DNA from: Alishewanella jeotgali KCTC 22429
GTDB lineage: Bacteria; Pseudomonadota; Gammaproteobacteria; Enterobacterales; Alteromonadaceae
Assembly (NCBI RefSeq): GCF_000245735.1
Contig: NZ_AHTH01000005.1
Location: 124,001-188,000 of the forward strand
DNA: 64,000 bases
Direction: 5' to 3'
This document shows positions 30,934-55,825 of this stretch, one piece after another (the first letter of the stretch is position 1; each line of letters opens with the position of its first letter). The position numbers and the translations under genes are program-made. Under the pieces are notes generated by a model. It was not told the origin of the DNA. It did not search any database and was given only the letters and a program-made list of their open reading frames with translations.

Positions 30934-31069
30934 GATGGGGTCATAAAGGATGGGGTCACCCATTAGCCTCTCGGTGTCAATAGCGTAACCAAACCCGCGC
31001 GCACGCAAGTGCGCGTATCTTTTATTCCTTGTAAACCAATAACCCTCGCATTTTAGTTCTCGTTGGTGG

Positions 31070-31338
31070 TTGCGATATATCGCTCCAGTCACCCATCAGG
31101 ATCAAGGCTCTGGACTCACTGCGTCCGGCCCCTGGCTACTTGTAGCCCCAGAAAACCCTCTGTTCTCCCGCCTGTCCAAGTGATGCAGCTTTTGCTGCGA
31201 CAGAATCATGGTTTTAAACCAACCCCTTGATGGCTCAGGCAGCAGGCGATGTTACGGCAAACAAGGTGAAACAGCGTAGCAGTGCAATCAGATCTATGGT
31301 TTTACCAACCCCAAATACGGCATCAGCTACGCTGGGTA
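31070..31338 (-). ncRNA. Candidate bridge RNA region, copy A
   Basis: Identical to the region described at 50512-50780 for copy B. The target-loop stem maps to 31272-31334. Confidence 0.5.
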
Positions 31339-31341
31339 AAC

Positions 31342-32358
31342 TCAGTTAAAGGCGCGCTTCACATCAAACTCTACCCCGTCTTTTAGCATGTTGTAGCAGG
31401 CTCTGGCCAGTTTGTGTGCCACGGCTTTCATCGCGACAACCTTTAAATTTTTAGCGCATTTACGTTGGTAAAATCGCTTGATTAATTCATCCGAGCCAAT
31501 CGCAAAGTGCGCGGCCTCCATAAAAGCCCAGCACAGGTAACGGTTGCCACATTTGCGATTTCCTTCACCCTTTTTCTTACCGTTTGATTCGCGTTTTGAC
31601 GTGACCATCCGGGCGTAAGAAGTAAAATTGCCGCAACTGTCAAACCGCGTAATATCACCGGTTTCCAGACAAATGGTCATCGATAAAATATCGCCAATCC
31701 CAGATACGGTTTTAAGCAGCTGAAAATCCTTGCAAGGCTTAAGTTGGCGTAACAGCTCAGCTTCTACAGCCTGAATTTGCTGTGCTAACGCTTGCATCAC
31801 AGTCCAATTCGCCTGCAACGCCAGTAACTGCTCTGGCAACAGGGGCAGTGCGGCCACTTGCTCCGCTGTCCATGTTTTAATAGTGTAGCTTGGTGTATCC
31901 CGGCCTAAATTGCGCATCAATAAATTCTTGATAGACAGCAGCTGGGTGGTCTTTTGCCGTACCAACTGCGCGCGTTTACGTGCTAAATCACGCAGAGCAC
32001 GAGGCTCTTTCGGATAAATATAGCCACAGGGCAACAGGTCTATTCGCAGCAAATGCGCCAGGTGTCTGGCATCGGCGAAGTCACCGCTGTATTTAAGGCC
32101 ATCATAGACCACCACTGCCGCGGTGTTGACCAGACGAACCTCATAACCTTCCGCTTGCAGCGCATCGACCAGCCAATACCAGTTAAACGTTGATTCAACA
32201 GCAATAGTGTCAATCTGCTCTTTATACATGGCAAGTACCCCGAGAATAACCTGCGCATCATTCGGTAAACGCTTGGAATAAATGACCTTATCGTTTTTAT
32301 CAATAATTACTAACACAGAATTATTGGAATGCAGGTCAATACCGACATACAATTTCAT
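31342..32358 (-). CDS. IS110/IS1111-family transposase, copy A
   Basis: A 338-residue DEDD recombinase identical in sequence to those at 49492 and 54671. N-terminal RuvC-like motifs: YVGIDLHSNNSVLVI (Asp), IAVESTFNWYWLV (Glu), GDFADARHLAHLL (Asp pair). C-terminal Tnp domain: VSGIGDILSMTICLETG, SYARMVTSKRESNGKKK and CGNRYLCWAFMEAA. I start at MKLYVGID, behind AAGGAGG; an earlier TTG would extend it 13 codons. Only about 30% similar by eye to the transposase at 15468, so the two are different elements. Confidence 0.95.
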   Translation of the reverse strand: MKLYVGIDLHSNNSVLVIIDKNDKVIYSKRLPNDAQVILGVLAMYKEQIDTIAVESTFNWYWLVDALQAEGYEVRLVNTAAVVVYDGLKYSGDFADARHLAHLLRIDLLPCGYIYPKEPRALRDLARKRAQLVRQKTTQLLSIKNLLMRNLGRDTPSYTIKTWTAEQVAALPLLPEQLLALQANWTVMQALAQQIQAVEAELLRQLKPCKDFQLLKTVSGIGDILSMTICLETGDITRFDSCGNFTSYARMVTSKRESNGKKKGEGNRKCGNRYLCWAFMEAAHFAIGSDELIKRFYQRKCAKNLKVVAMKAVAHKLARACYNMLKDGVEFDVKRAFN

Positions 32359-32449
32359 ACGGCCTCCTTGGAAATAGTTTTTTTCGACGTCAATCAAAAA
32401 ATAGCTATTAACTCGGAGGCCGTCTAAGGGCCGCTTAGGCTAATGATTA

Positions 32450-32496
32450 TCAGGTCTTGCTTTTTGCTTATAAAGCAAAAAGCAAGACCTGACCCC
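32450..32496. repeat. RAYT-associated palindrome, copy 1 (cut by IS copy A)
   Basis: Starts TCAGGTCTTGC and ends GACCTGACCCC, with an ATA-type loop. The outer GGGG of the left arm lies across the IS at 30952-30955. On the right, degenerate units (GACCCCAATTCC, GACCCCAATACC, GACCCCAATTCC) continue to about 32535. Confidence 0.9.
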
Positions 32497-49353: not shown

Positions 49354-49400
49354 GGGGTCAGGTCTTGCTTTTTGCCTTTTAAGCAAAAAGCAAGACCTGA
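49354..49400. repeat. RAYT-associated palindrome, copy 6 (cut by IS copy B)
   Basis: Palindrome of the CTTTTAA-loop type, intact from GGGGTCAGGTC to GACCTGA. The last part of its right arm (TGACCCC) is displaced to 50892-50898 by IS copy B. It is the downstream flank of the RAYT gene. Confidence 0.92.
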
Positions 49401-49426
49401 TAATCATTAGCCTAAGCGGCCCTTAG

Positions 49427-49491
49427 ACGGCCTCCGAGTTAATAGCTATTTTTTGATTGACGTCGAAAAAAACTATTTCCAAGGAGGCCGT
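49427..49491 (+). promoter_or_regulatory. Leader hairpin covering the transposase ribosome-binding site
   Basis: ACGGCCTCC (49427-49435) pairs perfectly with GGAGGCCGT (49483-49491), which contains the AAGGAGG ribosome-binding site and ends directly at the ATG. The same hairpin is in copies A and C. It would silence translation from transcripts that enter from outside the element. Confidence 0.6.
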
Positions 49492-50508
49492 ATGAAATTG
49501 TATGTCGGTATTGACCTGCATTCCAATAATTCTGTGTTAGTAATTATTGATAAAAACGATAAGGTCATTTATTCCAAGCGTTTACCGAATGATGCGCAGG
49601 TTATTCTCGGGGTACTTGCCATGTATAAAGAGCAGATTGACACTATTGCTGTTGAATCAACGTTTAACTGGTATTGGCTGGTCGATGCGCTGCAAGCGGA
49701 AGGTTATGAGGTTCGTCTGGTCAACACCGCGGCAGTGGTGGTCTATGATGGCCTTAAATACAGCGGTGACTTCGCCGATGCCAGACACCTGGCGCATTTG
49801 CTGCGAATAGACCTGTTGCCCTGTGGCTATATTTATCCGAAAGAGCCTCGTGCTCTGCGTGATTTAGCACGTAAACGCGCGCAGTTGGTACGGCAAAAGA
49901 CCACCCAGCTGCTGTCTATCAAGAATTTATTGATGCGCAATTTAGGCCGGGATACACCAAGCTACACTATTAAAACATGGACAGCGGAGCAAGTGGCCGC
50001 ACTGCCCCTGTTGCCAGAGCAGTTACTGGCGTTGCAGGCGAATTGGACTGTGATGCAAGCGTTAGCACAGCAAATTCAGGCTGTAGAAGCTGAGCTGTTA
50101 CGCCAACTTAAGCCTTGCAAGGATTTTCAGCTGCTTAAAACCGTATCTGGGATTGGCGATATTTTATCGATGACCATTTGTCTGGAAACCGGTGATATTA
50201 CGCGGTTTGACAGTTGCGGCAATTTTACTTCTTACGCCCGGATGGTCACGTCAAAACGCGAATCAAACGGTAAGAAAAAGGGTGAAGGAAATCGCAAATG
50301 TGGCAACCGTTACCTGTGCTGGGCTTTTATGGAGGCCGCGCACTTTGCGATTGGCTCGGATGAATTAATCAAGCGATTTTACCAACGTAAATGCGCTAAA
50401 AATTTAAAGGTTGTCGCGATGAAAGCCGTGGCACACAAACTGGCCAGAGCCTGCTACAACATGCTAAAAGACGGGGTAGAGTTTGATGTGAAGCGCGCCT
50501 TTAACTGA
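49492..50508 (+). CDS. IS110/IS1111-family transposase, copy B
   Basis: Identical product to the transposase at 31342-32358; see there for motifs. Full length and apparently intact. Confidence 0.95.
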   Translation: MKLYVGIDLHSNNSVLVIIDKNDKVIYSKRLPNDAQVILGVLAMYKEQIDTIAVESTFNWYWLVDALQAEGYEVRLVNTAAVVVYDGLKYSGDFADARHLAHLLRIDLLPCGYIYPKEPRALRDLARKRAQLVRQKTTQLLSIKNLLMRNLGRDTPSYTIKTWTAEQVAALPLLPEQLLALQANWTVMQALAQQIQAVEAELLRQLKPCKDFQLLKTVSGIGDILSMTICLETGDITRFDSCGNFTSYARMVTSKRESNGKKKGEGNRKCGNRYLCWAFMEAAHFAIGSDELIKRFYQRKCAKNLKVVAMKAVAHKLARACYNMLKDGVEFDVKRAFN

Positions 50509-50511
50509 GTT

Positions 50512-50780
50512 TACCCAGCGTAGCTGATGCCGTATTTGGGGTTGGTAAAACCATAGATCTGATTGCACTGCTACGCTGTTTCACCTTGTTTGCCGTAACA
50601 TCGCCTGCTGCCTGAGCCATCAAGGGGTTGGTTTAAAACCATGATTCTGTCGCAGCAAAAGCTGCATCACTTGGACAGGCGGGAGAACAGAGGGTTTTCT
50701 GGGGCTACAAGTAGCCAGGGGCCGGACGCAGTGAGTCCAGAGCCTTGATCCTGATGGGTGACTGGAGCGATATATCGCAA
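50512..50780 (+). ncRNA. Candidate bridge RNA region, copy B
   Basis: The 3' noncoding end is rich in hairpins. CAGCGTAGC (50516-50524) and GCTACGCTG (50570-50578) form a perfect 9-bp stem. Its loop holds TTGGGGT (50536-50542), identical to the outer palindrome half, and on the opposite side AGATCTGA (50555-50562), which matches AGACCTGA of the inner half with one difference that allows G-U pairing. Further on, ATGGGTGA (50754-50761) is identical to the right end plus core (50887-50894). This is the expected order of target-binding and donor-binding loops. Transcript ends are not visible. Confidence 0.55.
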
Positions 50781-50916
50781 CCACCAACGAGAACTAAAAT
50801 GCGAGGGTTATTGGTTTACAAGGAATAAAAGATACGCGCACTTGCGTGCGCGCGGGTTTGGTTACGCTATTGACACCGAGAGGCTAATGGGTGACCCCCA
50901 GATTGGCCCCCAAGAT

Positions 50917-51750
50917 TTACCTGACTGATACTATTCTGCTGACTCGGGAGTAATGCAAACCGAAATAATCACCGATCTGTTTCAGGGTATAATTGCCGGT
51001 TAGATAGGCAGCGACAATGGCGTCATCGCGATTAATAGCTGCTTTTTCAATTTCTACCAGGGACACTTTATTGCTAATACGTTGTTTCTTCGGGATGTCG
51101 GTTAACTCGGCGACGTGATCATCAAGCTCTGATAAGTGTTTCTGAACAAAATCGTCATCACCTAAAAAGATCTGATTGGTAATTTTTTCCCAGATGGTTA
51201 TCCCCTTGCCCTGCTGTACAAAACTGGCGTACTTTTCTCTGGCTAGCCGGCGTTGATTTGCGAAATTAGCCAACAAAGTATCCGTTGCCAACCACGTTGG
51301 CGAAGGAGCGTATCCCATCGCAGCATGCCAGCTGCTCCACGGCCATTCATCCAACGTCTGCACCATGTTGGCTCGAATGGGATTTAAGACAATATATCGG
51401 CTTAGCTCCATTAAATATGCATCTCTGTGCACCAAAATTGCCTTGAAACGGCCCTGAAATAAGTGACCTACGCGGCCATATTTGCGGTTAATCTTCTGAG
51501 TGTAACTACCATTAAGTTGGCGCATACCTTTGCTTAAATTGGCATCGGGCGTTTCAACTAACAAGTGATAATGATTTGTCATCAGGCAATAAGCGTGTAC
51601 TAGCCAGTTACACTGTTCACAGACTTTGGTTAGCAAGCTAAGGAAAAGCTTGAAATCTGCGTCTTCGAAGTAAATGGGTTTACGCTCATTGCCTCTGCTT
51701 GTTACATGGTAGAGCGCCCCACAGAACTCTAGTCTAAGAGGTCTTGCCAT
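50917..51750 (-). CDS. REP-associated tyrosine transposase (RAYT, IS200-like Y1)
   Basis: A 277-residue HUH-type single-strand DNA transposase. MARPLRLEFCGALYHVTSRGNE is the classical RAYT start; the HUH motif is in LMTNHYHLLVETP; the nucleophile tyrosine is probably in GSYTQKINRKYG; GHLFQGRFKAILV and YIVLNPIRANMV are family hallmarks. A C-terminal extension ends in a helix-turn-helix-like segment (YTLKQIGDYFGLHYSRVSR). I start at 51750; the frame upstream is palindrome sequence. Palindromes flank it on both sides, as RAYTs are flanked by the REPs they process. Confidence 0.93.
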   Translation of the reverse strand: MARPLRLEFCGALYHVTSRGNERKPIYFEDADFKLFLSLLTKVCEQCNWLVHAYCLMTNHYHLLVETPDANLSKGMRQLNGSYTQKINRKYGRVGHLFQGRFKAILVHRDAYLMELSRYIVLNPIRANMVQTLDEWPWSSWHAAMGYAPSPTWLATDTLLANFANQRRLAREKYASFVQQGKGITIWEKITNQIFLGDDDFVQKHLSELDDHVAELTDIPKKQRISNKVSLVEIEKAAINRDDAIVAAYLTGNYTLKQIGDYFGLHYSRVSRIVSVR

Positions 51751-51825
51751 AGCGTGCACATGGTTAACTATTGGTAATAAAAATGTAGCGGAAAAACCAG
51801 GAAAAACAAGTTGGGATTGGGGATT

Positions 51826-51876
51826 GGGGTCAGGTCTTGCTTTTTGCTTTATAAGCAAAAAGCAAGACCTGACCCC
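51826..51876. repeat. RAYT-associated palindrome, copy 7 (perfect, 51 bp)
   Basis: Perfect 24-bp arms around a TAT loop, which is the ATA type in opposite orientation. It is the upstream flank of the RAYT gene. Confidence 0.95.
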
Positions 51877-54190: not shown

Positions 54191-54398
54191 ACCGGCACAT
54201 CCTTATGTATCCATTGCTTAAGAAATAAGCTATATCAAGTTTAGCAGATTGTCGAGGGTTGCTAGGGGTCAAATTGCGTGGGGGTCACCCATTAGCCTCT
54301 CGGTGTCAATAGCGTAACCAAACCCGCGCGCACGCAAGTGCGCGTATCTTTTATTCCTTGTAAACCAATAACCCTCGCATTTTAGTTCTCGTTGGTGG

Positions 54399-54667
54399 TT
54401 GCGATATATCGCTCCAGTCACCCATCAGGATCAAGGCTCTGGACTCACTGCGTCCGGCCCCTGGCTACTTGTAGCCCCAGAAAACCCTCTGTTCTCCCGC
54501 CTGTCCAAGTGATGCAGCTTTTGCTGCGACAGAATCATGGTTTTAAACCAACCCCTTGATGGCTCAGGCAGCAGGCGATGTTACGGCAAACAAGGTGAAA
54601 CAGCGTAGCAGTGCAATCAGATCTATGGTTTTACCAACCCCAAATACGGCATCAGCTACGCTGGGTA
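54399..54667 (-). ncRNA. Candidate bridge RNA region, copy C
   Basis: Identical to the region at 50512-50780 in copy B. The target-loop stem maps to 54601-54663. Confidence 0.5.
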
Positions 54668-54670
54668 AAC

Positions 54671-55687
54671 TCAGTTAAAGGCGCGCTTCACATCAAACTC
54701 TACCCCGTCTTTTAGCATGTTGTAGCAGGCTCTGGCCAGTTTGTGTGCCACGGCTTTCATCGCGACAACCTTTAAATTTTTAGCGCATTTACGTTGGTAA
54801 AATCGCTTGATTAATTCATCCGAGCCAATCGCAAAGTGCGCGGCCTCCATAAAAGCCCAGCACAGGTAACGGTTGCCACATTTGCGATTTCCTTCACCCT
54901 TTTTCTTACCGTTTGATTCGCGTTTTGACGTGACCATCCGGGCGTAAGAAGTAAAATTGCCGCAACTGTCAAACCGCGTAATATCACCGGTTTCCAGACA
55001 AATGGTCATCGATAAAATATCGCCAATCCCAGATACGGTTTTAAGCAGCTGAAAATCCTTGCAAGGCTTAAGTTGGCGTAACAGCTCAGCTTCTACAGCC
55101 TGAATTTGCTGTGCTAACGCTTGCATCACAGTCCAATTCGCCTGCAACGCCAGTAACTGCTCTGGCAACAGGGGCAGTGCGGCCACTTGCTCCGCTGTCC
55201 ATGTTTTAATAGTGTAGCTTGGTGTATCCCGGCCTAAATTGCGCATCAATAAATTCTTGATAGACAGCAGCTGGGTGGTCTTTTGCCGTACCAACTGCGC
55301 GCGTTTACGTGCTAAATCACGCAGAGCACGAGGCTCTTTCGGATAAATATAGCCACAGGGCAACAGGTCTATTCGCAGCAAATGCGCCAGGTGTCTGGCA
55401 TCGGCGAAGTCACCGCTGTATTTAAGGCCATCATAGACCACCACTGCCGCGGTGTTGACCAGACGAACCTCATAACCTTCCGCTTGCAGCGCATCGACCA
55501 GCCAATACCAGTTAAACGTTGATTCAACAGCAATAGTGTCAATCTGCTCTTTATACATGGCAAGTACCCCGAGAATAACCTGCGCATCATTCGGTAAACG
55601 CTTGGAATAAATGACCTTATCGTTTTTATCAATAATTACTAACACAGAATTATTGGAATGCAGGTCAATACCGACATACAATTTCAT
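54671..55687 (-). CDS. IS110/IS1111-family transposase, copy C
   Basis: Identical product to copies A and B, intact. It reads in the same direction as tviB. Confidence 0.95.
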   Translation of the reverse strand: MKLYVGIDLHSNNSVLVIIDKNDKVIYSKRLPNDAQVILGVLAMYKEQIDTIAVESTFNWYWLVDALQAEGYEVRLVNTAAVVVYDGLKYSGDFADARHLAHLLRIDLLPCGYIYPKEPRALRDLARKRAQLVRQKTTQLLSIKNLLMRNLGRDTPSYTIKTWTAEQVAALPLLPEQLLALQANWTVMQALAQQIQAVEAELLRQLKPCKDFQLLKTVSGIGDILSMTICLETGDITRFDSCGNFTSYARMVTSKRESNGKKKGEGNRKCGNRYLCWAFMEAAHFAIGSDELIKRFYQRKCAKNLKVVAMKAVAHKLARACYNMLKDGVEFDVKRAFN

Positions 55688-55778
55688 ACGGCCTCCTTGG
55701 AAATAGTTTTTTTCGACGTCAATCAAAAAATAGCTATTAACTCGGAGGCCGTCTAAGGGCCGCTTAGGCTAATGATTA

Positions 55779-55825
55779 TCAGGTCTTGCTTTTTGCCTTT
55801 TAAGCAAAAAGCAAGACCTGACCCC
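55779..55825. repeat. RAYT-associated palindrome, copy 8 (cut by IS copy C)
   Basis: CTTTTAA-loop type. Its outer left-arm bases (GGGG) are across the IS at 54281-54284. Two extra units TGACCCCAATCC follow on the right. Confidence 0.92.

Follow-up and report, generated by a model that had tools for sequence, protein, structure and literature searches.

Insertion of IS110-family elements into REP sequences was published by 2006 (PMC1525189), and target guides of IS1111 elements followed in 2024 (PMC11187229, PMC11208160). As described in the text of PMC11187229, the match of an IS1111 seekRNA to the top strand of its target lies 5′ of the match to the bottom strand, and in ISEc11 a promoter assembled from the joined ends transcribes tnp together with the downstream RNA. 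For the bridge RNA of IS621, the text of PMC11208158 describes handshake guides, in which, once strands have been exchanged, core-adjacent bases pair with the partner DNA.

The element that we analyzed here shares features with both of these systems. Like the IS1111 elements ISEc11, ISPa11, ISKpn4, and ISPst6, as they appear in the text of PMC11187229, it has a noncoding region (NCR) downstream of the transposase gene, subterminal inverted repeats, a predicted joined-end promoter, and two short matches to opposite target strands in equal order. It differs from those elements in that the structured region spans about 270 nt, an SN motif replaces S(T)G in the transposase, and, on average across the relatives, a second loop also matches the target. 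With IS621, as presented in the texts of PMC11208160 and PMC11208158, it shares a target loop with left and right guides, a donor guide, a REP target, a core dinucleotide within the pairings, and, by our mapping, the same handshake geometry; unlike IS621, its NCR lies downstream rather than upstream, its core is TG rather than CT, its donor guide sits in a multiloop, and its subterminal repeat is 7 bp long rather than 2-3 bp. The target loop, right-end guide, and handshake are known bridge RNA or seekRNA biology. For a second target-matching loop, we found no mention in the running text of PMC11187229 and PMC11208160 or in the open-access literature searched. Overall, we put the probability at about 95% that the region downstream of the transposase gene encodes a bridge RNA, or seekRNA, belonging to an IS110-family element of IS1111 type, judged from comparative sequence analysis.

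The window, a stretch of 64,000 nt from Alishewanella jeotgali KCTC 22429, contains three identical 1,494-bp copies of this element. Copy 1 lies at 49400-50893 on the plus strand, measured between the duplicated TG core, with its ends assigned from intact palindromes and homologs; copy 2 lies at 54286-55779 and copy 3 at 30957-32450, both on the minus strand, the latter with coordinates derived from the position of tnp. Every window copy is inserted into one arm of a REP-like palindrome, GGGGTCAGGTCTTGCTTTTTGC...GCAAAAAGCAAGACCTGACCCC, the left part of which occupies 49354-49399 next to copy 1, where the insertion has split the right arm. Because five intact palindromes are left in the window, both the empty site and the element ends are known, and on the strand of the element the target reads AAGACC-TG-ACCCC. 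At the left end (49398-49410, plus strand), the TG core is followed by ATAATCATTAG, and the left half of the subterminal inverted repeat (ATTAGCC) starts here; the right end, AGGCTAATGGGTGA (50881-50894, plus strand), carries the repeat arm GGCTAAT and the TG core at 50892-50893. The repeat of 7 bp stands at the lower limit of the 7-17 bp of the IS1111 group, and in many relatives, 7-10 of 10 compared positions of the subterminal repeats match. Relatives with TGA at the left end but TGT or TGG at the right end indicate that the common core is the TG dinucleotide. A −35-like TTGACA (50870-50875, plus strand) would lie 17 nt from GATAAT once both ends join in a circle, and at least 10 of 12 consensus bases of this putative promoter are found in 35 of 58 elements, a count made without a random control.

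The transposase/recombinase gene (49492-50508, plus strand) encodes 338 aa with DEDD_Tnp_IS110 and Transposase_20 domains (PF01548, 2.6e-16; PF02371, 5.3e-16), which place it in the IS110 family, and scores 195.8 bits against NF033542, for which the cutoff is 140. Its length and the 385 nt of noncoding DNA 3′ of tnp agree with the 330-350 aa and long downstream NCR of the IS1111 group. The catalytic serine, S258, is invariant in seven of seven aligned proteins and aligns with the serine of ESG in ISCro4. Of the GL-P----S(T)G motif, which the text of PMC11187229 gives as a consensus reported for the IS1111 group and not as a group criterion, the serine is kept and the next residue is N. This N in place of the usual G after the catalytic serine extends almost clade-wide: a pattern search finds SN in 77 of 88 transposases, nine of the 10 that the pattern missed have SN on the sequence segments inspected and the other TN, and the remaining protein reads TS by the pattern.

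Copy 1 sits just past the 3′ end of a neighboring gene for a REP-associated tyrosine transposase (RAYT; 50917-51858, minus strand), which scores 81 bits against NF047646, for which the cutoff is 80. The palindrome is clustered locally and not genome-wide, in that 22 of the 24 exact GGGGTCAGGTCTTG matches in the genome fall on contig C61 at 156-239 kb. In having all copies at one REP position, the element is like the IS110-family elements ISPpu9, ISPpu10, and ISPa11 (text of PMC1525189), although the species and the REP sequence are different and only a minority of the sites in this clade, 9 of 56 joined sites, is palindromic (p<=0.01; three of the nine are the window copies). As a general recognized feature, the palindrome was ruled out on these figures, and RAYT-like genes near only 5 of 88 loci, in the DNA examined, argue further against it. 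Left flanks ending in AAGRYY occur in 23 of the 71 elements with a readable left flank (three being the window copies), 20 of them with a right flank starting ACC; by record title, they span hosts of different phyla (Pseudomonadota, Nitrospirota, and one Pyrinomonadaceae MAG), and most lie outside palindromes. On other contigs of the genome of the window, remnants of a related element have a different right flank, ACCCCGAAGG in L004 and L005 and ACTCCGAAGG in L006, and a 5′ guide that fits this flank, TTCGGGGT, is present in the relative L038.

The initial annotation of this DNA, made from the sequence alone, had described a bridge-RNA-like target loop matching both halves of the palindrome target, and the features that it described are confirmed. 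A perfect 9-bp stem, in which CAGCGTAGC (50516-50524) pairs with GCTACGCTG (50570-50578), closes the predicted target-binding hairpin (loop 1; 50516-50578, plus strand), and this outer stem also covaries. The two loop strands, TTGGGGT at 50536-50542 (TTTGGGGT from 50535) and AGATCTGA at 50555-50562, lie where that annotation had put them; on the strand where the target reads TTGGGGTCAGGTCTT, the first is identical to the left half, and pairing of the second with TCAGGTCT includes one U-G. The guide order that had been likened to IS621 is indeed IS621-like on that strand, and on the transposase strand it is the order given for IS1111 seekRNAs in the text of PMC11187229. Read on the transposase strand, the 5′ target guide TTTGGGGT (50535-50542) would pair with the right flank ACCCC(A), the 3′ target guide AGATC with the core TG (50555-50561) matches the left flank AGACC-TG with one U-G, and the putative handshake bases AT that follow the core (50562-50563) are the same as those with which the element starts (AT, 49400-49401). 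In copies 1 and 2, the fit between the 5′ guide and the right flank stops after the 5 nt ACCCC, where C takes the place of A. Nowhere in the window outside the three copies of the element do the two loop matches (the left half and any of four spellings of the right half) occur as a pair.

Neither single-sequence folding (z -0.49; 63 of 200 shuffles as stable) nor an Rfam search of the region, which gave no match at gathering score, lent support; the structural evidence is comparative. We aligned 23 downstream regions, comprising the window and 22 relatives chosen from the loci, and ran RNAalifold, which returned a consensus fold of the target hairpin and a multiloop domain. The latter, a predicted donor domain (50595-50778, plus strand), is closed in the consensus by the helix 50595-50604/50767-50778, which is partly mismatched in the window copy; it fits the report, in the text of PMC11208160, that many IS1111 orthologs have predicted donor-binding bases within a multiloop. 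Scoring omitted the final two pairs as well as the four that could join guide to guide; of the 44 pairs that remained, 32 are changed on both sides, and 90.1% of cells are paired. The covariation score is 0.542, compared with 0.207 for shuffled alignments (0 of 500 as high) and 0.071-0.115 for slid partners.

The comparison of loops with insertion junctions that the initial annotation had called for was made on 88 elements: 80 loci from one relatives search, the three window copies, and five further loci. Scans of viral contigs found no relatives. The target loop was found by rule in 80 of the 88, and eight, including L037, were dropped for having no loop that fit the rule. Across 64 distinct elements, the 3′ guide matches the left flank at 3.91 of 5 nt where 1.88 are expected (0 of 20,000 shuffles), and across 58 distinct elements, the 5′ guide matches the right flank at 4.90 of 6 nt where 3.43 are expected (0 of 20,000); the second count includes L077, whose right flank was misassigned and which was excluded from the handshake, donor-domain scan, and right-flank paired counts. 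When 3,456 RNA-by-flank cells from 53 distinct elements were scanned without a preset register, all of the top ten paired a guide strand with its own flank, either at the expected register or, within the CCCC run, shifted by one. To lessen the effect of relatedness, we also compared closest disjoint pairs of elements in which both loops were found (76 plus 28 new). Where left-flank bases differ, the 3′ guide tracked the change 37 times, crossed it once, and did neither 60 times (41 pairs); for the 5′ guide and the right flank, the counts are 43, 0, and 43 (39 pairs). Loops and flanks thus change together, which upholds the reading of this hairpin as a target loop.

The result was repeated out of sample with frozen rules on elements from other genomes and plasmids. 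Of 56 new loci (L117-L172), 19 were left out as copies from the genome of the window, fragments, or distant relatives, and 37 entered the test: 17 were distinct elements with a left flank and both loops (13 with a right flank), nine repeated combinations that had been counted before, and 11 were missing a part by rule, among them L122 and L165, which would have favored the second loop described below. The 3′ guide scored 3.41 against 1.69 expected (n=17) and the 5′ guide 5.00 against 3.38 (n=13), both with 0 of 20,000 shuffles as high. The nearest relative, L037, with a 93% identical transposase, carries the 5′ guide TTTAGGGT instead of the TTTGGGGT of the window and has ACCCTAAA as its right flank; a deletion has removed its 3′ strand. 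It had also been proposed that the same loop at different targets would speak against a guide, and on this point, the outcome favors a guide that tolerates mismatches: the plasmid copies L160-L163 share one loop and one right-flank type, and their left flanks agree with the loop at 2 to 4 of 5 bases.

Two other explanations of the match between loop and target have to be set against these data. At 7-8 nt, the matches are short, and about 4-5% of Markov NCRs contain a given half (928 and 773 of 20,000), as a coincidence of short sequences would have it; among 20,000 first-order Markov NCRs, 7 contain both matches in this order within 40 nt, and 2 of 20,000 shuffled targets find both in the real NCR. 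Covariation over dozens of elements and its out-of-sample repetition refute coincidence, which we regard as exceedingly improbable. Very unlikely too, if less extremely so, is a match at the level of DNA, with the NCR acting as a shared repeat or protein-binding site and not as an RNA guide. Such a reading gains some appeal from the fact that elements and palindromes are both repeats, but it sits poorly with compensatory base-pair changes in 32 of 44 pairs and with two guides whose matches to opposite strands follow the published order of IS1111 seekRNAs (text of PMC11187229). For a bridge RNA, by comparison of sequences, conservation of the RNA structure is demonstrated, as is the agreement of guides with targets, of guides with right ends, and of handshake bases.

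On the donor side, ATGGGTGA at 50754-50761 (plus strand) duplicates the right end of the element (50887-50894), as had been noticed before, and it comprises a putative right-end guide, ATGGGTG, and a handshake base, A. Its assignment as a donor guide is strengthened by the relatives, in which the donor-domain copy is identical to the true right-end 8-mer in 50 of 60 elements, repeated copies counted (permutation mean 22.3, maximum 34), and rare right-end variants are shared by the donor guide (GGCTGA in L045, L047, and L048; GAGTGA in L110). In L088, from Paraburkholderia nodosa, the donor-guide segment ATGGATGACTGGTGCAGACCAG is present again at the right end. A search of the donor domain across relatives identified no left-end donor guide, and in the strand before CTGGGG, where the anchor was misplaced in some elements (e.g., L039-L043), there was no clean covariation with the left end. 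As for the handshake, in 70 of 74 elements, the target loop has directly after TGA the base found at position 2 of the left end; in 53 of 59, the right-end guide has directly after TG the base with which the right flank begins. Repeated copies are counted in both figures. Among disjoint pairs that differ at these positions, 21 tracked, none crossed, and four did neither for the target loop; the counts for the right-end guide are 16, 0, and 5. The pairs are mostly distant (53-74% identity, one 91%), so that clade effects remain; single C-C and G-G cases match too. By our mapping, an IS621-style handshake geometry appears to be present and is partly clade-structured.

From this arrangement, we infer transcription, complex formation, a circle intermediate, and strand exchange. 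Joining of the ends in a circle would create a TTGACA-17-GATAAT promoter that transcribes tnp and the downstream RNA, and the transcript 3′ of tnp would fold into the target-binding hairpin and the donor-binding multiloop. On the top strand of the target, the right flank would be bound by the 5′ guide, and on the bottom strand, the left flank would be bound by the 3′ guide, with the TG core between the flanks; the donor-domain guide would read the right end of the element, with the core-adjacent bases in each domain matching the partner DNA as a handshake. The RNA would in this way direct the DEDD recombinase to bring the circular element to AAGACC-TG-ACCCC, with strand exchange at TG. Dozens of retargeted relatives constitute a natural experiment that backs the bridge RNA model for IS1111-type elements, handshake bases included, and the analysis yields a table of guide-target pairs.

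A further loop lies within the donor domain. In the window, this loop 2 (50620-50671, plus strand) consists of a 5′ strand AAGGGGT (50622-50628), a hairpin, and a 3′ strand TGATTC-TG (50642-50649); it forms the apical loop of a donor-domain helix and has the same build as the target loop (5′ guide, TGG hairpin CCA, 3′ guide plus TG). The hexamer ATGATT (50641-50646), which the initial annotation had offered as a weak candidate for the other donor guide, falls in loop 2, a loop that tracks the target in other clade members. It occurs at that site only in the element of the window and its nearest relatives L037 and L038 and was ruled out as a conserved left-end guide.

Our first automatic extraction of loop 2 recovered 32 of 80 loops, several incorrectly, and gave a weak signal (RTG2-LF, z 2.3 at 5 nt), and the rule was rewritten twice after the sequences had been inspected, reaching 75 of 80 and then 76 of 80. 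Across 55 distinct elements, the 3′ strand of loop 2 matches the left flank at 2.89 of 5 bases where 1.88 are expected (0 of 20,000), and the match is gone when the strand is slid by 1-3 bases (z at most 1.7). The 5′ strand matches the right flank more weakly, at 3.56 of 6 bases against 3.06 (1 of 5,000), under the earlier extraction rule (75/80). Some relatives that have unusual targets spell the target again in loop 2; individual cases include L100, in which left flank, guide, and second loop all read GGTTT, and L122, in which left flank and second loop both read TGGAGT. Because the rule had been rewritten on inspected sequences, loop 2 was included in the frozen-rule test on new elements, where the 3′ strand scored 2.59 against 1.71 (n=17; 2 of 20,000) and the 5′ strand 3.31 against 2.63 (n=13; 63 of 20,000). 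We consider it an even chance, on this sequence evidence, that in the clade bridge RNA, the known target loop is accompanied by another loop inside the donor domain that also reads the target, and we infer that across the clade, this second loop would be used jointly with the first. It would then read the flanks of an integrated copy during excision or hold a second target molecule in the complex; if true, reading of the flanks would account for a donor element needing the right target around it. The second loop is a clade property that is at best half present in the copy of the window, in which the 3′ strand TGATTC fits AAGACC at 1 of 5 scored bases and the 5′ strand AAGGGGT fits ACCCC.

For loop 2 only, a competing explanation is that it resembles loop 1 through recombination between the loops or shared ancestry and not through target reading, which we hold to be possible, if on the doubtful side. 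Guide 1 and the flank disagree at 77 positions, and of these, loop 2 agrees with guide 1 in 35, with the flank in 12, and with neither in 30. The paired test gives a modest signal that is weaker than for loop 1, with 10 tracked and three crossed (85 neither) on the left and 12 and two (72 neither) on the right, and within the AGRYY-target group no loop 2 signal was found (n=22, z 0.9). When 6,280 cells were scanned in the neighborhood of loop 2 and the donor domain, the top cell and several of the next were in the loop-2 register, and off-register cells near the top reached z 3.8-4.5. Rearrangement of the loops does occur, as a fusion in L037 and a duplication in L068. Against such copying speaks the extent of the similarity, which among 75 distinct elements is confined to guide positions (3′ strand -1 to -5; 5′ strand -2 to -5 and -7) and absent from the testable adjacent bases and the start of the intervening hairpin, both of which a conversion tract would take in. 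Also against the rival, the loop 2 signal survives when elements are compared inside clusters whose transposases are at least 65%, 70%, or 75% identical (0, 0, and 1 of 20,000, respectively).

The two rearranged loops are of interest in themselves. In L037/L008, from Arsukibacterium perlucidum, loops 1 and 2, whose hairpins are similar, have been fused by a deletion between these hairpins into a hybrid loop, in which the 5′ guide fits the site over 8 bases and the 3′ strand and left flank have TTC-TG in common. In L068, from Undibacterium macrobrachii, the target hairpin is tandemly duplicated about 41-160 nt past tnp (the best self-match, 42 of 60 bases, has an offset of 82 nt); one hairpin is like the loop of L056, and the other has the 3′ guide of L061, from the same species, forming a natural RNA with an extra target loop.
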